Part shown: one piece after another, positions 31,307-63,150 of the stretch
Position numbering within the stretch: the stretch's first letter is position 1
Layout: each line of letters starts with the position of its first letter
Origin: Blastocatellia bacterium
Lineage (GTDB): Bacteria; Acidobacteriota; Blastocatellia; Pyrinomonadales; Pyrinomonadaceae
Reading direction: 5' to 3'
Assembly (NCBI GenBank): GCA_003168335.1
Contig: PMSM01000006.1
Span: forward strand, 1-64,000
Length of the DNA stretch: 64,000 bases
The notes under the pieces: generated by a model
Seen by the model: only the letters and a program-made list of their open reading frames with translations
Databases searched by the model: none
Told to the model about the DNA's origin: nothing
Position numbers and translations under genes: made by a program

Positions 31307-32089
31307 ATGAAACTGGCCAATAAACTCGCATTCATCACCGGTGGTGGCCGCGGCATCGGCCGCGCCATCGCGTTTGCGTTTGCGCGTGAAGGTGCGTCGG
31401 TCGCGTTGGCGGCGCGCACGCGCGCACAAGTCGACAGCGTGGCGAACGAAATTGCCAGCGAGTTCGGCGTTGAGACACTAGCGCTTGAATGCGACGTTGC
31501 TGATGCCGAGAATGTTGGACGCGCGTTCGCGCGAGCGAGTGAACAGTTTGGTGGCGGACCTGACATACTCGTAAACAATGCCGGCATCGCAGAGACTGCG
31601 CCTTTCACAAAAACCGACGAAGCGATGTGGCAACGTCATCTCGCAGTGAATCTGACGGGCACGTTTCACTGTACGAGCGCGGCGCTGCCGGAAATGCTCG
31701 AACGTGGCTGGGGCCGCATCATCAATATTGCTTCAATCGCGGGCAAAACCGGCGCGCCGTACATCTCGGCATATGCGGCGTCAAAGCACGGCGTGCTCGG
31801 TTTGACGCGATCGCTGGCGCTTGAAGTCGGCGCAAACGGGATCACGGTAAACGCGATTTGTCCGGGCTATGTCGATACTGAAATGACTTCACGAGGCATC
31901 GCCAACATCGTGGCGAAAACCGGCAAGTCGGCCGACGATGCGCTCTCCACACTCAAGCGGGCGAGCCCGCAGAATCGCCTGGTGACCGCGGCAGAAGTTG
32001 CCGCGCTGGCTTTGTTGCTGGCTTCAGAAGAAGGCCGTGGCATTAATGGGCAGGCGATCAATGTGGATGGCGGGACGGTGCTGTTCTGA
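31307..32089 (+). CDS. Short-chain dehydrogenase/reductase
   Basis: 260 residues from the ATG at 31307. A Rossmann fold with TGGGRGIG (cofactor loop), NNAG, a catalytic Ser in NIASIAG and YAASKHG (Y-x3-K) is followed by CPGYVDTEM. Arg in the turn after strand 2 (AARTRAQ) suggests NADP(H). It probably oxidises a 3-hydroxyacyl-CoA produced by the neighbouring hydratases, though a FabG-like biosynthetic role cannot be excluded. Confidence 0.93.
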   Translation: MKLANKLAFITGGGRGIGRAIAFAFAREGASVALAARTRAQVDSVANEIASEFGVETLALECDVADAENVGRAFARASEQFGGGPDILVNNAGIAETAPFTKTDEAMWQRHLAVNLTGTFHCTSAALPEMLERGWGRIINIASIAGKTGAPYISAYAASKHGVLGLTRSLALEVGANGITVNAICPGYVDTEMTSRGIANIVAKTGKSADDALSTLKRASPQNRLVTAAEVAALALLLASEEGRGINGQAINVDGGTVLF

Positions 32090-32173
32090 TTTGGAGTGCG
32101 CCGACCTGTCGGCGCTTTTCCTAAACCAGCCTGACGAGAAAGAAAAGCGGCGACAGGTCGCCGCACTCCAAAA
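32090..32173. repeat. TTTGGAGTGCG intergenic palindromic element, copy 4
   Basis: TTTGGAGTGCGCCGACCTGTCGGCGC, then GCGGCGACAGGTCGCCGCACTCCAAAA (given here in part). It starts directly at the SDR stop and ends 3 nt before the aspS ATG. Confidence 0.85.
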
Positions 32174-32176
32174 TTA

Positions 32177-33985
32177 ATGATCGAAAACCTGGGCAACCTT
32201 GAACGCACGCACTCGTGCGGCGCTTTGCGCAAAGAAGACGTCGGCCAGCGGGTGACGTTAATGGGCTGGTGCGCTAAGCGGCGCGACTTTGGTCCGCTCA
32301 CTTTCATCGACCTGCGTGATCGAGACGGCATCACTCAGATCGTGGTGAACCAGGAAAACGCGGCCGAAGCCCATGCGAAAGCCAAAGAAGTACGCGGCGA
32401 ATACGTGCTGGCTGTAACTGGTGAAGTTGCACTGCGCGATGAAGGCGCGCGCAATCCGAAGCACGCCACCGGAGATGTCGAGGTCCAGGCCAGGGACCTC
32501 GTAATTCTCAACGACGCGCGCACGCTTCCCTTCCAACTCGATGCTCCAGCGACCGAAGCCCTGGCGGCCGAAGAGCTGCGCTTGAAATATCGTTATCTCG
32601 ATTTGCGCCGGCCACAGCTACAGGGGAATTTGCGCTTGCGGCATCGCCTGCTGCTGGAAATCAATCGCTACATGGACGAGCACGGCTTTACGCAGATCGA
32701 AACTCCTAATCTAATTAAATCTACACCCGAAGGCGCGCGTGACTACATCGTGCCGTCGAGAGTGCAGCCGGGAAGATTTTTTGCTCTGCCGCAATCACCG
32801 CAGATTTTCAAACAGATTTGCATGATTGCGGGTCTCGACAAGTACTACCAGATCGCGCGCTGCTTTCGTGACGAAGACCTGCGTGCCGACCGCCAGCCTG
32901 AGTTTTCGCAACTCGATATCGAGATGAGTTTTGCTACTCCCGATCAGATTTTCACGCTGGTCGAAGGTCTTTTTGCGCGCGTATTCAAACTAATTGGTGT
33001 TGACCTGCCCACTCCGTTTCCGCGATTCACCTTTGCGGAAGTAATGCAGCGCTTTGGTTCCGACAAACCAGACATGCGCATTGAAGGCATGGAACTGAAG
33101 GACCTGGCGCCGGCTTTGACGGAAACAACTTTCGCGCCGTTTGCGGGCGCGCTCGGCGCGGGCGGACAGGTTAAGGGCATGGCGGTGCGGGGCGGCGCCG
33201 CGATGTCGCGCAAGACACTGGACGAGTTGCAGGAATTTGCCAGGCGTTACGGCGCCGGCGCGCTGGCCTGGATCAAGCTGGGTGACGAACTCTCGTCGTC
33301 GCTGTTGAAAGCGTTGGGTACTGAAACCGTCGCGAGCATGGCTGAAGCCGCCGGGACCGCGAAGGGCGATGCGGTCCTGATCGTTGCGGGCAAACCGAGC
33401 GTCGTGGCCGCGAGTCTCGGAGCGCTGCGTAACGAAGTCGCGCGCCGCGAGGAATTGATTCGCGAAGGCGTGTATGCGCCGTTGTGGGTCACTGAGTTTC
33501 CGATGTTCGAGTTCCATGAAGATGATGGTCGCTATTATTCGATGCATCATCCTTTTACTTCTCCGTTGGATGAAGATGTACCTGCGCTCGAACGCGCCGT
33601 GAACGGAGAAGCTCAACTGTTTGCCGGGCTCCGCGCGAAAGCCTATGACGCGGTTATCAACGGTGTCGAAGTCGCCGGCGGCTCGATCAGAATTCATCGT
33701 CGCGACGTGCAAGCCATCGTTTTCAAAGCGCTCGGCATGAGCGAAGAGACGGCGCGGGCGCGCTTTGGTTTCTTCCTTGATGCGCTGGGCTATGGCACAC
33801 CACCGCATGGCGGAATCGCTTCGGGTATCGAGCGCACGCTGATGGTGCTCGTGCCCACAGAAAATATTCGCGACGTGATGGCTTTTCCCAAAACTGCTTC
33901 GGCGCAGGACTTGATGATCGACGCCCCCGGCGAAGTCGATCAGAAACAGTTGGCAGAGCTGCATCTGAAGATTGTGAGAGACTAG
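32177..33985 (+). CDS. aspS: Aspartyl-tRNA synthetase
   Basis: 602 residues, normal for the bacterial type. An OB-fold anticodon-binding domain (1-110; VTLMGWCAKRRDFG) is followed by class II motif 1 around HGFTQIETPNL, motif 2 ARCFRDEDLRADRQPEFSQL, a GAD insertion (about 300-420) and motif 3 GIASGIERTLM. It charges tRNA-Asp, and perhaps tRNA-Asn if nondiscriminating, which the sequence does not settle. The region upstream of the ATG is filled by a palindromic element and offers no Shine-Dalgarno. Confidence 0.98.
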   Translation: MIENLGNLERTHSCGALRKEDVGQRVTLMGWCAKRRDFGPLTFIDLRDRDGITQIVVNQENAAEAHAKAKEVRGEYVLAVTGEVALRDEGARNPKHATGDVEVQARDLVILNDARTLPFQLDAPATEALAAEELRLKYRYLDLRRPQLQGNLRLRHRLLLEINRYMDEHGFTQIETPNLIKSTPEGARDYIVPSRVQPGRFFALPQSPQIFKQICMIAGLDKYYQIARCFRDEDLRADRQPEFSQLDIEMSFATPDQIFTLVEGLFARVFKLIGVDLPTPFPRFTFAEVMQRFGSDKPDMRIEGMELKDLAPALTETTFAPFAGALGAGGQVKGMAVRGGAAMSRKTLDELQEFARRYGAGALAWIKLGDELSSSLLKALGTETVASMAEAAGTAKGDAVLIVAGKPSVVAASLGALRNEVARREELIREGVYAPLWVTEFPMFEFHEDDGRYYSMHHPFTSPLDEDVPALERAVNGEAQLFAGLRAKAYDAVINGVEVAGGSIRIHRRDVQAIVFKALGMSEETARARFGFFLDALGYGTPPHGGIASGIERTLMVLVPTENIRDVMAFPKTASAQDLMIDAPGEVDQKQLAELHLKIVRD

Positions 33986-58149: not shown

Positions 58150-58357
58150 TGACGACTTTCGCCGCGTCAGCGGCGTTTGGCTTTAGCCCTGCCTTTTAAG
58201 GCAGGGGTGGACGCCCGCCGGATTTTTGCGTCGCGTTAGCGACGCGTGAAGGCGCGGAGGTGCACGCGTCGCTAACGCGACGCCGCCTCTTTTCAATCTA
58301 GACCCCGGCCTTAAAAGGCCGGGCTAAAATCACGCCGCCGCTACGCGGCGAATGGAA
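58150..58357. repeat. Nest of five or more palindromes beside the transposon
   Basis: TCGCCGCGTCAGCGGCG, CCCTGCCTTTTAAGGCAGGG, TCGCGTTAGCGACGCG, CGCGTCGCTAACGCGACG, CCCGGCCTTAAAAGGCCGGG and CGCCGCTACGCGGCG follow one another. The first and last suggest outer inverted ends. The transposon target site starts immediately after. Confidence 0.8.
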
Positions 58358-58358
58358 C

Positions 58359-58366
58359 CACCGTAG
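58359..58366. repeat. Target-site duplication, left copy
   Basis: CACCGTAG, identical to the right copy at 63143-63150. The bases just outside differ (A on the left, C or A on the right), which fixes the duplication length at 8 bp. Confidence 0.9.
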
Positions 58367-58393
58367 GGTAGTGCTCTATTAGTGTGTTGCTGG
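58367..58393 (+). repeat. Transposon left terminal inverted repeat
   Basis: 27 bp, identical to the reverse complement of 63116-63142; starts GGTAGTGCTCTATTAG and ends TTGCTGG. Confidence 0.95.
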
Positions 58394-58428
58394 GGGAAGA
58401 TTCTAATTAGGGTAACGATATAGTTGAC

Positions 58429-58968
58429 TCACCACGGTTTTACTGGCACGGCAAGCGGAAGATTGTGATCTAGGGCCAAGGTTGGGTCAGCGTGAAAAGT
58501 TAGAAAGTGTGACTGATTACTACCGGGCGCGCGATATGCAATAAATGTCGAGATTGAAAGCCTTAACGATGGCGTCCCTCTGCAATCTCGACTAACCGTA
58601 AAACCTTCGGAGATTGACTGATCCATTCCTGCTGGGATTTCCGATTTTTCATCGTAGGCTTCGCCGTCCTTGATCGCGATCTTGCATTTGCCGTCAAACT
58701 TTCCCGTAAGGCTAGTTGATACATATGAAATTACGGCGGTGGACTTGCCTGTGTTTCGTAGTTTGATCGTGAACCATCCTTCCGTCTCTTCCTGCTCCAC
58801 GCTTATTGGATAGCTAAGCGCGCTAAGTTCGCTCGCGGTTACTATCGGTCGATTTACTTCCTCACTAATAAGTCTGTTCTGATGAGACTCCCACCAACTC
58901 AAACCGCTAATAATTATCGCGATGAGACTAAGAGCGAGAGCAATCCATTTGGGGGATTCTGAAGGCAC
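58429..58968 (-). CDS. Passenger gene: single-span membrane protein, unknown
   Basis: 179 residues, apparently starting at GTG 58968 with a weak ribosome site. One N-terminal membrane helix (about 8-27) is followed by an extracytoplasmic or cytosolic beta-rich domain (TEGWFTIKLRNTGKSTAVIS, then a Cys pair at about 117 and 151). No family recognised. It lies between the outer left end (58367) and a degenerate internal copy of that end (59016), as if the gene plus an end were added as a unit. Such single-span passengers often act in self-recognition or defence, but nothing proves it here. Confidence 0.7.
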   Translation of the reverse strand: MPSESPKWIALALSLIAIIISGLSWWESHQNRLISEEVNRPIVTASELSALSYPISVEQEETEGWFTIKLRNTGKSTAVISYVSTSLTGKFDGKCKIAIKDGEAYDEKSEIPAGMDQSISEGFTVSRDCRGTPSLRLSISTFIAYRAPGSNQSHFLTFHADPTLALDHNLPLAVPVKPW

Positions 58969-59015
58969 AGGCCGTTAGCTTACTACTACAGGCCGAACGA
59001 GGGATAGTGGGGCTA

Positions 59016-59042
59016 GGTAGTGGCATATTAGTGTATTGCTGG
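59016..59042 (+). repeat. Degenerate internal copy of the transposon left end
   Basis: 27 bp starting GGTAGTGGCATATTAG and ending TTGCTGG. It differs from the true end at four positions and is in the same orientation. Confidence 0.9.
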
Positions 59043-59057
59043 GGCTCCAGTTAGCCC

Positions 59058-59531
59058 TCACTCGTTTTCGTTAGCTTCCGGGACAGGAAGAGGCAGTCCC
59101 ATAGCAATCACCGTGACCTGCGGATATTCCTCCTGAAGTTTAATCCGCTTCTCTACAACATTCTTGGTGTGTTCCGAGTTGACTATAAGATACCGCGTCA
59201 AATCCCCAGGCTCGACGCTAAGCCGCCGCAAATCACGCTCGATTGCGGCCTTCTGAGGCCCGCGTAAGCCGACGGCCTCGGAAGTGTGGGTTGTCTTAAC
59301 CTCCGCAATCAGCATTCTGGTGCCATCTTTCGCAAAGCCTTGAATGTCAATGCCGCCTGCGCCCGCTCCATGATATTCGAATCTGAGTTTTGGATGTCTT
59401 AGCTTTAATTTCTCAATCGCGATCAAAGCTAATTTGTCATGAATCCGATTGTTGAGAATGCCAATTGATTCTTTGAGTTTAATAAGAAACTGAAGCTCGT
59501 CCGTGTAGATGTCTATGAGTGACTTCGCCAT
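59058..59531 (-). CDS. Passenger gene: PD-(D/E)XK-like nuclease-fold protein
   Basis: 157 residues. A helical N-terminus with E40 is followed by a strand-rich core: GGIDIQGFAKDG (D62) and LIAEVKTT (E77-x-K79). This D-x14-E-x-K spacing is the classic core of restriction-endonuclease-like folds. The C-terminal region alternates strands and helices (TRYLIVNSEHTKNVV). Probably a DNA-acting enzyme or a protein that uses the fold for binding. It could be part of a defence, anti-restriction or transposition-related function. Confidence 0.75.
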   Translation of the reverse strand: MAKSLIDIYTDELQFLIKLKESIGILNNRIHDKLALIAIEKLKLRHPKLRFEYHGAGAGGIDIQGFAKDGTRMLIAEVKTTHTSEAVGLRGPQKAAIERDLRRLSVEPGDLTRYLIVNSEHTKNVVEKRIKLQEEYPQVTVIAMGLPLPVPEANENE

Positions 59532-59938
59532 GAAGCGGCTTATATCACCAATCGACTTGAGTTGCTCGAAATATTTTATTGATATTCATATTAGGAAAGC
59601 GTATATTAGCGCTCGTCTTTTTGAAAACTAAATATTAGGCTGTAGAGCCGCCATTTACTTAGGTTGACGAGCCGTCGCATTAGGTCACTTCGAGCCGGCG
59701 CCTCTGAACCGAACGAGCTGCCGCCATTGAGCCGTCGCCGTGAAGTTCACTGAGCCCTCGCCGTAGAGACCGAAAGAGCCGCCGCCGGACTTCCTTCGAG
59801 ATCGCCGTTCCGCTGCTAAGAAGAAGAGGCACATACAAGATACGTGTCTCGATCTGATTAGAGTGGGCGGCTTTTGTGCTTTATGGGCCTAAGAAATCTG
59901 CTTGGAGAGTTAACTTATAGAAAAACTCTAGGCCAAAA
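59532..59938. repeat. Non-coding stretch with a 23-24-bp-period GAGCCGCCGCC array
   Basis: GAGCC-type cores occur at 59645, 59669, 59692, 59715, 59729, 59752 and 59776, i.e. steps of 24, 23, 23, 14, 23 and 24 bp, with a degenerate consensus GAGCCGYCGCC. No gene is visible in this 407-nt gap. A regular array in a transposon suggests protein-binding sites or a structured RNA. An adjacent TTTTTGAAAACTAAA (near 59617) recurs as TTTTTGAAAACCAAA near 60471, beside the transposase gene. Confidence 0.75.
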
Positions 59939-60190
59939 ATGAAAAAGGCCGGGCCACTAACCCGGTCTCTTTCGGAAAGCGATTTTGCAATGTCCAAAAC
60001 GAAAAGCGCCTTCGGGCGTCATGCCCTTAGTGTGCGCATAGTAACCGAACTGCCGGTTAGTTTGCAATACAAAAGTGATGCGAGGTTCAAGCGGGATACA
60101 AAACCAATAATCGTGTCCCTGGTATCGGCCATAATCAGAGTAACCGAGTCCGCATCCGGCGAACTGGTTATCGAGATTGAGCCGCCATAG
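59939..60190 (+). CDS. Passenger gene (tentative): small basic protein
   Basis: At most 83 residues from ATG 59939, or 66 from ATG 59990. Lys/Arg/Ser-rich N-terminus, then alternating hydrophobic strands (IIVSLVSAIIRVT, then GELVIEIEPP). Neither start has a good ribosome site, and a minus-strand frame overlaps it. It ends 23 nt inside the convergent zinc-ribbon gene. A CCGGG / CCCGG hairpin with a pyrimidine tail lies at about 59949-59975. Reported with low confidence. Confidence 0.3.
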   Translation: MKKAGPLTRSLSESDFAMSKTKSAFGRHALSVRIVTELPVSLQYKSDARFKRDTKPIIVSLVSAIIRVTESASGELVIEIEPP

Positions 60191-60350
60191 CTCGCTTCGA
60201 CAGTTTCACGTTTCGCTGTCTGGGTCGATTCCAGTAAGGCGACTTGCACGACGGGCATTGCTTAGGTTCCGTGTCTGCATCGCGTGGCAACCATTCATTG
60301 CCGCATCGCTCGCACTGCCAAAGCCAGACAGTCTTTTTTACTTTCGCCAT
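60168..60350 (-). CDS. Passenger gene: small zinc-ribbon protein
   Basis: 60 residues from the ATG at 60350. A rubredoxin/zinc-ribbon pair CERCGNEW and CPSCKSPYW makes one metal site, followed by a basic tail (RPRQRNVKLSKR). WQCERCGNEWLPR is a common phrase in small zinc-ribbon proteins of mobile DNA and toxin-antitoxin loci. Likely a nucleic-acid-binding or regulatory protein. Convergent with the 59939 frame and divergent from the transposase. Confidence 0.7.
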   Translation of the reverse strand: MAKVKKTVWLWQCERCGNEWLPRDADTEPKQCPSCKSPYWNRPRQRNVKLSKRAMAAQSR

Positions 60351-60438
60351 GCGCTCATACTATCGCAAATAATATATGAGGTCAAGTATTATTTAGCTTG
60401 ACTCTTACTGTTATCAAAGATATTATAAGCAAGCATTG

Positions 60439-60475
60439 AAAGGCCCTAGCGGCGCTAACCACTAAGGCCCTTTTT
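60439..60475 (+). terminator. Hairpin with T-run upstream of the transposase gene
   Basis: GGCCCTAGCGG and CCACTAAGGCC form an imperfect stem followed by CCTTTTTG. It may insulate the transposase gene from outside transcription. Confidence 0.55.
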
Positions 60476-60555
60476 GAAAACCAAACGCGATTGCTCGCAT
60501 CGGTGTCCAAGCAACCCGATTTTGAGCTATCGCCAGACGAAAGGCAAGGCTCAAA

Positions 60556-61500
60556 ATGACGTGTCATAATTGCAGCGCGATATGTAAGAAGTTTGGAAAG
60601 TTCGGCCCGAAAAGAATTCAACGCTGGCGCTGTAACCAATGCAAAAAGACGTTCTCGGAAGCCCAGGACAAGCCGCTTGATGATATGCGGATCTCGCTAG
60701 ACAAGGCTGAGATGTGCCTGAAGCTTTTGCTTGAGGGAATGTCCGTTCGATCTATTCAACGAATTACTGGCGTACATCAAGTGACGATCCTTAACCTATT
60801 GGTCCTCGCTGGCGAGCGTTGCGAGAAGTTAATGACCGAGCGCATCAAAGGGATCGCTGTCAAAGACGTTGAAGCGGATGAGATTTGGGGCTTCGTTCAA
60901 TGCAAGAATCGCCACAAGCTCAACAAGGGAATCACTGATCCGAAAGTTGGCGATGCGTATACATTCGTCGGCATTGAGCGGAACACAAAGCTTGTTCTGG
61001 CGTGGCACCTGGGCGAGCGAGACATGACTGCTACTGAAGCTTTCACCGAGAAGCTGAACGAAGCGACCAGCGGATACTTTCAACTAACCACAGACGGCTT
61101 CCGGCCTTATGAGAACGCCGTGAGTTATTCCCTCGGAACCCGCGTTGACTACGCGATGCTGATCAAAATCTACGGAGCTAACCCTGACGGCGAACAGCGA
61201 TACTCGCCACCCGTCGTGGTGGAAACAACAACGAAGATAATGATCGGAGACCCTGACCCTAGCCGCATATGTACTTCAATCGTTGAGCGTTCAAATCTCA
61301 GCATGAGGACATCGATCCGCCGTCTTACTCGCCTGACTAATGCTTTCTCTAAAAAGTGGGAGAACCTGAGAGCGATGCTGGCGCTGTACTTTGCCTATTA
61401 CAACTTCTGCCGGATTCATTCCAGCATTCGCTGTACGCCAGCAATGGAAGCGGGTATAACCAAAAGTGTTTGGTCGATCCGCGATTTGCTTACAGCTTAA
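60556..61500 (+). CDS. IS1-family DDE transposase with N-terminal zinc ribbon
   Basis: 314 residues in one frame; classical IS1 needs a frameshift between InsA and InsB. An N-terminal ribbon (CHNCSAICKKFGKF, RCNQCKKTF) is followed by a helix-turn-helix (LEGMSVRSIQRITGVHQVTI). The DDE domain has DEIWGF, TTDGFRPYENAV and the C-terminal signature ERSNLSMRTSIRRLTRLTNA (Glu in IVERSN). FYNF-like FAYYNFCRIHSSI follows. All of these match IS1-type transposases. It is expected to act on the GGTAGTG-type ends that bracket this element. Confidence 0.93.
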   Translation: MTCHNCSAICKKFGKFGPKRIQRWRCNQCKKTFSEAQDKPLDDMRISLDKAEMCLKLLLEGMSVRSIQRITGVHQVTILNLLVLAGERCEKLMTERIKGIAVKDVEADEIWGFVQCKNRHKLNKGITDPKVGDAYTFVGIERNTKLVLAWHLGERDMTATEAFTEKLNEATSGYFQLTTDGFRPYENAVSYSLGTRVDYAMLIKIYGANPDGEQRYSPPVVVETTTKIMIGDPDPSRICTSIVERSNLSMRTSIRRLTRLTNAFSKKWENLRAMLALYFAYYNFCRIHSSIRCTPAMEAGITKSVWSIRDLLTA

Positions 61501-61511
61501 AGGAGATTTCC

Positions 61512-61880
61512 ATGCAGTTTCGTATGTACGCTCTCTCATTGATGGCCGCTAACAAAACCCACAAACCCCATCTGGGAGAATCTGACGCACCAATCGAATT
61601 CGCACATCGCGGCGCAGTGTGTATTGCTGAAAATATCGAAGACGCTGGCCGACAATCCAAAGAACACGTCTATGCCACGTTCCCTGTTTCCAGCGGCTAT
61701 TCTCATCAACACGTTGTCGTTTCACCAATACAGCAATCATTCTTTGATTCCCTTGAACAAACCTGCGCGGCAGGGCTGTTCTTTTCTGGCGTTGCTCCCG
61801 GTGAAACCATTCGGACGTTCAACTTCGACCCCAGCCCCGATGACTATCTTCGTGCTTCTGGAGAGGGCAATGTACATTGA
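61512..61880 (+). CDS. Passenger gene: protein of unknown function after the transposase
   Basis: 122 residues from ATG 61512 with AAAGGAG 5-7 nt upstream; it begins 11 nt after the transposase stop, so it is probably translated from the same mRNA. It reads MQFRMYALSLMAANKTHKPH and has several His residues (AHRGAVCIAE, SSGYSHQHVVVS). No family recognised. A minus-strand frame with its own AGGAG (about 61737-61975) overlaps its end, so which strand is coding in 61737-61880 is not certain. Confidence 0.6.
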   Translation: MQFRMYALSLMAANKTHKPHLGESDAPIEFAHRGAVCIAENIEDAGRQSKEHVYATFPVSSGYSHQHVVVSPIQQSFFDSLEQTCAAGLFFSGVAPGETIRTFNFDPSPDDYLRASGEGNVH

Positions 61881-62133
61881 ACCGACAGGTGCTGGTTGCG
61901 GGTCATCAAGTCCGCCCCACTCGCCATTCAAGCCGACAACTTCCGGTTCTTCAGTTTCTTGGACTGCCATTGGTTGATTTTCTCCTAGCCGGTGGCTAAA
62001 CTTCGGACTAGGACGCGGGTGGGCGTTCAAGGAAATCTGGCTACAAGGCTCCTGGCAGAGTTTTGTAGCCAAAACTATTTCTGGGGTAAGCATACCATAG
62101 CAAGTCAAATCGATCAGTGATATAAGGGCGACT

Positions 62134-62640
62134 ATGCCGAAGCGCAAATTTCCAATGACCTCGCGGCAGTGTGAGATAGCCGCTGAGTCGTACACCGCCT
62201 GTCTGTTAGCACAGTCCGGCTACGACGTTCTCGTGCAGTACGGAGCAAACCAGCCGCACTATGACTTGATGGCCGTGAAGGGCGAAGAACGCAAGCTTCC
62301 GATCTCTGTCAAAGGTAGTCAGGACGGTGGTTGGATGTTGGCCGTTGGCTACAAGAAAACGGGAGTTACCTATCTCTCGGCGATTGACCAATGGCTCTCA
62401 GTCCAGCGACAGGATATTGTCTATGCGTTTGTGGGGTTTCTCAACGTACCTCTTGGTCAGGCTCCCCGCGTGTACGTTGCCCGACCGTCAGAGATCGCGG
62501 CGCAGCTCAAGGCTCAGGCGTTCGGGCGAGGTCATTGCGCGCTGCAAGAAGACTCACCAACCTATTACCCAAGTTCTAAGAATAAAGACAAAGTTCCGGC
62601 TGAATGGCGCTACTCCACCGAGCGCATCGACACTATCTGA
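62134..62640 (+). CDS. Passenger gene: restriction-endonuclease-like-fold protein
   Basis: 168 residues. After a helix with E15/E18 comes a core YGANQPHYDLMAVKGEE (D44) followed by LPISVKGSQDGGW (S58-V-K60). D-x13-S-x-K resembles the PD-(D/E)XK core with the acidic residue before xK missing; the conserved Glu may have migrated to the first helix. Proteins with PxYD...SVKGSQDGGW occur in many bacterial mobile regions. Function unknown; nuclease, or inactive DNA binder. Confidence 0.75.
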   Translation: MPKRKFPMTSRQCEIAAESYTACLLAQSGYDVLVQYGANQPHYDLMAVKGEERKLPISVKGSQDGGWMLAVGYKKTGVTYLSAIDQWLSVQRQDIVYAFVGFLNVPLGQAPRVYVARPSEIAAQLKAQAFGRGHCALQEDSPTYYPSSKNKDKVPAEWRYSTERIDTI

Positions 62641-62672
62641 GCAACCAATAATACTAAAGGACTACCTACTGA

Positions 62673-63110
62673 ATGTTCGCCAATAGGAAAAAGCGCCGCA
62701 AATTGCAAGGTGAGATCGATGCGCTGAGGGCCGAATTGCGTGCTGCCGCCAAATTGGCTAGAGAAGGTGAACCGAATTTCCGCGAACAGAGGGATATTGC
62801 AGGAGACATAAGATCCTGCGAGCGGCGATTAGCTGTGTTTGAATCTAGTATCGTCACTAGAAAGGCACCAAAGTATGGAATTGATATTCCTTCAGCGCGA
62901 GAGAAGCCAGAATGGTGGCTAGACGATACGGAAGAACAACATGAGGCCGGAGTACCTAACAACATGTTGGCCGAAGTTTCAACCCAATGGTTGTCTGCCA
63001 AAGGCAGAGCGATAGTTATTAGTCAGATTCATGCTTACTGGAAAGGCTTGGTTGAACTACTAATAACAGTACTTGCCCTCCTAGTCGCAATCCTCGCCTT
63101 GTTGAAGTAG
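62673..63110 (+). CDS. Passenger gene: coiled-coil protein with C-terminal membrane anchor
   Basis: 145 residues. A charged N-terminus (MFANRKKRRKLQGEIDALRA) forms a long helix; a middle section is Trp-rich (EKPEWWLDDTEEQHEA). The last 20 residues are one membrane helix (LVELLITVLALLVAILALL). Its stop is only 5 bp from the right terminal repeat. Tail-anchored topology with a helical head. No family recognised. Confidence 0.7.
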   Translation: MFANRKKRRKLQGEIDALRAELRAAAKLAREGEPNFREQRDIAGDIRSCERRLAVFESSIVTRKAPKYGIDIPSAREKPEWWLDDTEEQHEAGVPNNMLAEVSTQWLSAKGRAIVISQIHAYWKGLVELLITVLALLVAILALLK

Positions 63111-63115
63111 CGCGT

Positions 63116-63142
63116 CCAGCAACACACTAATAGAGCACTACC
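63116..63142 (-). repeat. Transposon right terminal inverted repeat
   Basis: 27 bp, the exact reverse complement of 58367-58393, with no mismatch. Confidence 0.95.
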
Positions 63143-63150
63143 CACCGTAG
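63143..63150. repeat. Target-site duplication, right copy
   Basis: CACCGTAG, same as 58359-58366. Confidence 0.9.

Follow-up and report, generated by a model that had tools for sequence, protein, structure and literature searches.

Insertion sequences (IS) of the IS1 family have ends of the pattern GGnnnTG and are flanked by target duplications of 8-9 bp. In classic IS1, two overlapping frames, insA and insB, are joined by a frameshift, with insA being the first gene after the left end; single-frame members are also known. Bare IS1 elements measure approximately 0.7-1.2 kb. Passenger genes without a role in transposition are found inside single insertion sequences termed transporter IS (tIS), as excerpts of two reports describe them (PMC9330008, PMC7986276). 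The cargo of Tn7-like transposons is variable and takes in toxin-antitoxin and defence genes, according to the excerpted part of Benler 2021 (PMC8649781). The element considered here lies in a stretch of 64,000 nucleotides (hereafter the window) at the start of contig PMSM01000006.1 of a Blastocatellia bacterium (assembly GCA_003168335.1), and a preliminary description had read it as an intact IS1-type transposon with a multi-gene load.

The mobile unit occupies positions 58367-63142 of the window (4,776 bp) and is likely to be a complete, non-composite transposon of the IS1 kind, with one transposase. Its left terminal inverted repeat, GGTAGTGCTCTATTAGTGTGTTGCTGG (58367-58393, plus strand), starts with GGTAGTG, and its right one (63116-63142, minus strand) is an inverted copy identical at 27 of 27 positions; a repeat scan returned arms of 100% identity at 58366-58393 and 63116-63143, which are the 27-bp ends and one neighbouring base. 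Outside the ends, an exact 8-bp target duplication, CACCGTAG, is read directly at 58359-58366 and 63143-63150. Between them lie the transposase and six passenger open reading frames (ORFs), all open; of these, the minus strand encodes the three left of the transposase and the plus strand the three right of it. The G+C content is 0.497 within the unit and 0.565 in the remaining window. The perfect ends, the duplication, the single-frame transposase and the extent of one 4.8-kb mobile unit were thus all confirmed as first described.

The insertion site was compared among seven genomes of the same genus, the window's own included. Five of the six other genomes have a strong homologue of the methyltransferase gene to the left of the unit, at 76-82% identity; none was found in the sixth, which is the least complete of the six. 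In each of the five, the methyltransferase is adjoined, with no insert, by the ThiS-like and zinc-ribbon genes that stand to the right of the unit here, and the ThiS gene starts 113-219 bp from the methyltransferase match. This comparison of flanks, proposed at the outset, is one of gene order, the intergenic DNA being too diverged for the target to be compared base by base; at that level the unit appears as an insertion at an intergenic site that has no insert in relatives. Just to the left of the insertion there is a block of inverted repeats (58158-58352) with 51-nt arms of 76% identity and a perfect 21-nt pair at 58228/58263. These are perhaps REP-like (repetitive extragenic palindrome) intergenic repeats of the host.

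The transposase (60556-61500, plus strand) is an unbroken single frame of 314 aa. It matches the Pfam domain DDE_Tnp_IS1 (PF03400) with 33.2 bits against a cut-off of 24.1, and the NCBIfam model transpos_IS1 (NF033558) with E 5e-26 and 91.9 bits, just under the cut-off of 100, as a divergent member would; the match to the IS1595 model is far weaker (E 2.5e-4). A PDB sequence search with the transposase gave no meaningful match. Residues D108, D180 and E244 are invariant in an alignment of 20 transposases, and we take them to be the catalytic triad, as read from known IS1 chemistry. The nearest kin are two loci, L027 and L028, whose transposases are 76% identical to that of the window and group with it at 100/100 in the tree. 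A distant relative (30% identity) is encoded in a 321-kb Brevundimonas phage record (ON529850.1, 174803-175660), which has no feature annotated at the match.

Related elements were sought in three further sources, an element being defined as a locus with paired ends (and a target duplication) around a transposase, with copies dropped. Genome contigs supplied 51 related loci, 46 of which were examined in a first scan for end pairs and all 51 in the control described below. A search of genomes from the window's family gave 46 matches in 31 of 119 genomes; 20 of these were fetched with flanks, 16 had end pairs, and three were dropped as copies of loci already in the set. A viral collection, the contigs of which may be of host origin, gave 252 matches; the best 80 were used, and two of the 38 loci with end pairs were near-identical and dropped. 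The resulting 80 distinct elements comprise 29 of the 51 genome-contig loci, the window, locus L023, 13 elements from family genomes and 36 from the viral collection, and they span at least seven phyla, by the organism labels of the tree rows, as well as the viral-collection contigs. An exact duplication of 8 or 9 bp flanks 79 of them, L092 having one mismatch. The ends are GGTC in L055 and L099, the transposase is truncated in L037 and L065, and L089 (7,450 bp) may be nested. The window's own genome has one more complete element, that of L023 (L023:6837-10307, G000:C2:68836-72306); it belongs to the Rel4/RHH type described below and has a 9-bp duplication.

Chance pairing of ends was controlled for by offset. 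Among 129 loci, 64 have a GGTA-type end pair together with an exact 8/9-bp duplication, whereas no such pair was found at any of ten wrong offsets (-60 to +105); coincidence is therefore excluded as the source of the pairs. With this control the unit is read as a complete transposon because of its ends, its duplication, the intact ORF, the IS1-type transposase, the insert-free state of five out of five relatives, and the 64 pairs against none.

The ends, the transposase and usually one small accessory gene are kept across the 80 elements, while the remaining cargo varies; variable cargo was among the things that the preliminary description had proposed to look for. The median length is 3,323 bp, with 76 of 80 elements between 2.0 and 5.3 kb, and the length of DNA beyond the transposase has its quartiles at 1,964 and 2,881 bp. 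Because 79 of 80 elements exceed 1.5 kb, this lineage is at odds with the statement that so large a cargo is rare in IS1-family elements. The sole shorter element, L167 (1,365 bp), consists of the transposase and the accessory gene KGG only, and it was again the only unit recovered in a search for units below 1.6 kb with any end sequence. Matches are also present in 25 plasmid records, outside the 80. Three of the four that were examined show such a unit with an exact duplication, and in the fourth a left end only was found. In the three units the transposase is annotated as 'IS1 family' and its neighbours as hypothetical, XRE or helix-turn-helix proteins; in one record the KGG gene is annotated as 'histone H1'.

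A few further loci carry ends of this family. In the record NZ_CP136863.1, one relative has a left end, and no right end was found for it; a gene annotated as a Shedu immune nuclease (31983-33161; L206:491-1669) is located immediately outside this left end. At L020 (G000:C13:98361-98393), two element-type ends stand head to head within 33 bp, with perfect 15-nt arms and a 3-nt centre (GGTAGTGCTCCGTTA...), and the flanks are not duplicated. A further left end occurs at L019 (G000:C11:18961 onward); approximately 4 kb past it, a 541-aa DNA methyltransferase that also has a nuclease-like part is, by eye, similar to one of the cargo proteins of L085.

The accessory genes fall into two types. The KGG gene encodes approximately 80 aa with a motif like GGxKGGKARA...IAxKAAxxRW, and a Pfam scan of two KGG proteins gave no match. 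By a strict rule, 56 of 80 elements have it on the plus strand, starting less than 100 bp from the left end in 45 of these and 195-1,236 bp from it in the other 11; our own profile finds it in 59 elements, against two matches in 622 kb of flanks. Its position after the left end, like that of insA, prompts the guess that KGG might have a regulatory or DNA-binding role. The second type, Rel4, occurs in eight elements together with a ribbon-helix-helix-like (RHH) gene, and in the four of these that come from family genomes or the window's own genome it directly follows the transposase. KGG and Rel4 are never found together (0 of 80), and 13 elements, the window among them, have neither. L027 and L028 also lack both; they have a helix-turn-helix gene and other small ORFs in common, and L028 carries an EVE-NucS-like protein. 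The window's cargo overlaps with that of these two kin in the zinc ribbon only, which is common to the window and L028.

The cargo of relatives was surveyed with ORFs called by a simple longest-ORF rule. Family scans covered 119 of 126 cargo ORFs of at least 90 aa from 44 elements; seven were left out by hand, and at least one of the 119 is a piece of transposase. The 36 viral-collection elements were searched with ten profiles of our own only, which were built from members of the set. Among the top 25 of 51 Pfam families in the cargo are HTH_3 (10), M78 (6), P63C (5), SocA/Panacea (3), DNA methylase, Mrr and HigB (2 each), and TIR, Fic and NYN (1 each). Among the top 25 of 133 PADLOC models are PD-Lambda-2_B (7), RmrA (up to 6), CapP (5) and methyltransferases (2). 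For comparison, 119 ORFs were drawn at random from 295 flank ORFs. These matched 185 Pfam families, mainly metabolic or housekeeping (RecA, DNA polymerase III, kinases) and none with more than two members, and 85 PADLOC models, including mad8 (3 members) and PD-T4-6 models (2), the latter probably being the two protein kinases.

By our own profiles, M78-type proteins occur in 13 elements (14 at a looser limit), SocA in four, and a third gene beside M78 in 11, every time together with M78; none of the three is found in the 622 kb of flanks. HigB, HigA-M78 and this third gene form a clear trio in L098 and L059, and a trio by profile in L190. Since PADLOC gave no match for the third gene of the first two, the trios are termed PD-Lambda-2-like. 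RmrA is the M78 antitoxin of RosmerTA in the excerpt of PMC10440598, and the P63C protein of L034 has no PADLOC match; a reading of the PADLOC 'RmrA' matches as P63C proteins was ruled out on these two grounds.

The window unit has six passengers, the earlier list having lacked the 122-aa gene at 61512-61880. Passenger 1 (58429-58968, minus strand; 179 aa) has an N-terminal hydrophobic stretch, by eye a membrane anchor, and matches no family. Passenger 2 (59058-59531, minus strand; 157 aa) has a GGIDI...AEVK motif like that of PD-(D/E)XK nucleases. Passenger 3 (60168-60350, minus strand; 60 aa) is a zinc ribbon that is divergent from the transposase, and L028 (64% over 50 aa) and L096 (60%) likewise have a related gene next to the transposase. 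Passenger 4 (61512-61880, plus strand), which matches no family, starts 11 bases past the transposase stop codon and has a ribosome-binding site of its own, AAAGGAG. Passenger 5 (62134-62640, plus strand; 168 aa) has a PD-(D/E)XK-like YDL...PISVKG motif with S in place of the usual D/E, and passenger 6 (62673-63110, plus strand; 145 aa) has a charged N-terminal part and a hydrophobic C-terminal stretch, by eye a membrane anchor.

Passengers 2 and 5 had been described as two restriction-endonuclease-like proteins. The motifs are there by eye, and they are conserved in the few close relatives that could be aligned (one for passenger 2, two for passenger 5); the likeness to PD-(D/E)XK nucleases is presumed from the motif usual in that superfamily. 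Neither protein matches a family in Pfam, PADLOC or NCBIfam, and profile searches of PDB gave nothing meaningful. Each of the two is found in three of 119 family genomes, and the only genome common to both sets is the window's own, which is also the single genome with passenger 5 among 297 in a sample of the phylum. The relatives elsewhere are 63% identical for passenger 5, and 72% and 38% for passenger 2. Element ends were not found around them, three of the four stretches being cut by a nearby contig end, and no relatives of either protein were found in the viral contigs. The passengers as one conserved system are unsupported, as relatives of passengers 2 and 5 lie in different genomes.

The two genes have in common a near-identical 28-base motif, which ends in TGATATAAG seven bases ahead of the start codon. 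The copy before passenger 2 lies at 59539-59566 (minus strand), and that before passenger 5 at 62099-62126 (plus strand), with 24 of 28 bases the same. The motif may be a shared promoter with an extended -10 box. With up to three mismatches, the motif occurs only once more in the genome, at C5:16540, on the outer side of an element-type end and 18 bases from it. This third copy belongs to L024 (G000:C5:15346-16767), a fragment of a relative with two element-type ends in the same orientation and a KGG-like ORF across one of them.

In the explanation that we prefer, the transposase would act on both ends, and everything between them would move as one block. Cargo could be kept since it makes losing the element costly, by addiction, or since the host is helped against phages and rival elements; this is suggested because the recognisable cargo in relatives is largely of the toxin-antitoxin or abortive-infection type. 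In the window, two nuclease-like proteins with a common start-site motif might be small DNA-targeting effectors, perhaps working with the membrane proteins, and the zinc ribbon beside the transposase may be an accessory of the window's sub-lineage. For the wider proposal the chances seem about even: a large, unnamed IS1-type lineage in at least seven phyla, whose cargo is practically obligatory, in which a conserved, histone-H1-like KGG gene or the mutually exclusive Rel4 with RHH may take the place of an InsA-type regulator, and which spreads small defence and toxin-antitoxin systems, the candidate nuclease-like proteins of the window included.

A number of observations weigh against the transposon and the proposed lineage. 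Firstly, the mobility of the unit is deduced from its sequence, no transposition having been observed, and the genome has one full copy of it and no second close copy. (A composite transposon with two flanking IS copies was rejected on this count, together with the single transposase inside.) Secondly, 65 of the 129 loci have no GGTA-type end pair with a duplication. Many of these run off the contig or hold transposase fragments; several, such as L129, L134, L147, L156, L158, L172, L174 and L193, have both ends but no duplication; and the 65 include L055, which belongs to the 80 elements but has GGTC ends. Thirdly, PADLOC also matches flank ORFs (85 models, against 133 in cargo), and it is the kinds of family, not such matches alone, that separate cargo from flanks. 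Toxin-antitoxin or defence-like classes could be assigned in only 29 of 80 elements, a rough count that includes P63C (function unknown), AAA and GNAT, with nine elements classed by single scans or by eye, and of the 11 elements that combine M78 with the third gene, only three showed a HigB-like toxin.

The window itself adds to these points. It has no KGG gene, which is found in most relatives, and its passengers match no defence family in the Pfam, PADLOC and NCBIfam scans; their best PADLOC matches are those of one nuclease-like protein (E 0.006-0.009) and of the zinc ribbon to a model of 2,055 positions (E 5e-4). The structure prediction proposed with the preliminary description, run on passengers 2 and 5 as single-sequence folding, gave poor models, with predicted local distance difference test (pLDDT) values of 48.9 and 33.5. 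Relatives of these two proteins occur singly outside elements and never both, except in the window's genome. A defence role of the window's cargo is thus unproven, and the suggestion of a mobile defence module is supported in part, by the toxin-antitoxin and defence-type genes that many relatives carry.

These points bear on a rival explanation, that the unit is an ordinary IS1 relative with random neighbouring DNA, its passengers being neutral, decaying hitch-hikers. The chromosomal singletons related to passengers 2 and 5 would fit, as would a cargo without recognised function in family scans and an inner left end that could mark an accidental shift of the boundary. We consider this unlikely: the six passenger ORFs are all open, nearly every delimited relative has long cargo (79 of 80 over 1.5 kb), and the cargo of relatives is non-random, with M78, the third gene and SocA inside elements and absent from the flanks.

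The inner end is a correction to the earlier account, which had the outer pair right: the unit contains, at 59016-59042 (plus strand), another left-type end that has diverged, with 22 of 26 bases (85%) as in the true end. It may mark an older boundary, and suggests that the unit once began at 59016, the outermost gene having been gained as the unit grew through use of a second left end. An inner end of this kind is unique to the window, and such growth would be a single case. Internal ends as a general route of capture are not supported, since two weak matches besides the window in 80 elements equal the expectation from shuffling. This end also invites a nested reading, in which 59016-63142 is the older element, 58367-59015 was added later and the 4.8-kb unit is accidental. 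That history is improbable, as the exact duplication is found only at the outer pair (58367/63142), whose ends match at 27 of 27 positions, there is no second transposase, and no right-type end lies near 59016 with up to three mismatches. The last rival, an ordinary chromosomal gene block of the genus with coincidental ends, has nothing in its favour except the singletons, which answer in part the earlier note's own test (the same genes without terminal repeats, here each alone), and can be dismissed as a negligible prospect given the adjacent flanks in five of five relatives, the rarity of passenger 5 (three of 119 family genomes, one of 297 in the phylum sample) and the absence of pairs at wrong offsets.

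Small defence systems are patchily distributed, and their vehicle is in many cases unknown. The transposon lineage favoured here would be a compact vehicle with a single transposase and with sharp boundaries, given by recognisable ends and an exact duplication. Any gene enclosed by the ends becomes a delimited candidate for a role in defence or addiction, by a route independent of defence islands. For IS biology, the question is why this branch of IS1 is almost never found free of cargo.

The window unit is like the IS1 family in its DDE_Tnp_IS1 domain, its GGTAGTG ends, which follow the family pattern, and its 8-bp duplication, and is set apart from the IS1595 family by its far stronger match to the IS1 model. 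It differs from classic IS1 in having one 314-aa frame with no insA/insB frameshift, and from bare elements in size, both for the window and for the median and bulk of its relatives. Like Tn7-like transposons, as excerpted, the lineage has variable cargo with toxin-antitoxin and defence genes; unlike them, it has units that are mostly 2-5 kb long, with a single IS1-type transposase. No Tn7 core genes are among the families listed in the cargo scans, which included no search aimed at them. The HigB-like toxin, HigA-M78 and third gene of L098 and L059 recall PD-Lambda-2 (Vassallo 2022, PMC9519451) and RosmerTA with its RmrA (PMC10440598), as far as the excerpts of these papers go, whereas HigA-M78 with a toxin partner was not found in the window's cargo by the Pfam and PADLOC scans. 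An IS1-type lineage with near-universal, often defence-like cargo is not described in the excerpts of the literature searched, which was mostly open literature, had ISfinder outside its scope, and included PMC7371123, PMC11092175 and PMC6563490. The undescribed class of passenger transposon that had been suggested may apply to the lineage-wide cargo and not to the principle, passenger-bearing IS being already known as tIS in the excerpted reports (PMC9330008, PMC7986276). With its six passenger ORFs between one pair of ends, the window unit is like these tIS; what is apparently new, judged against the same excerpts, is that cargo, unlike in tIS in general, is near universal and often defence-like throughout an IS1-type lineage.

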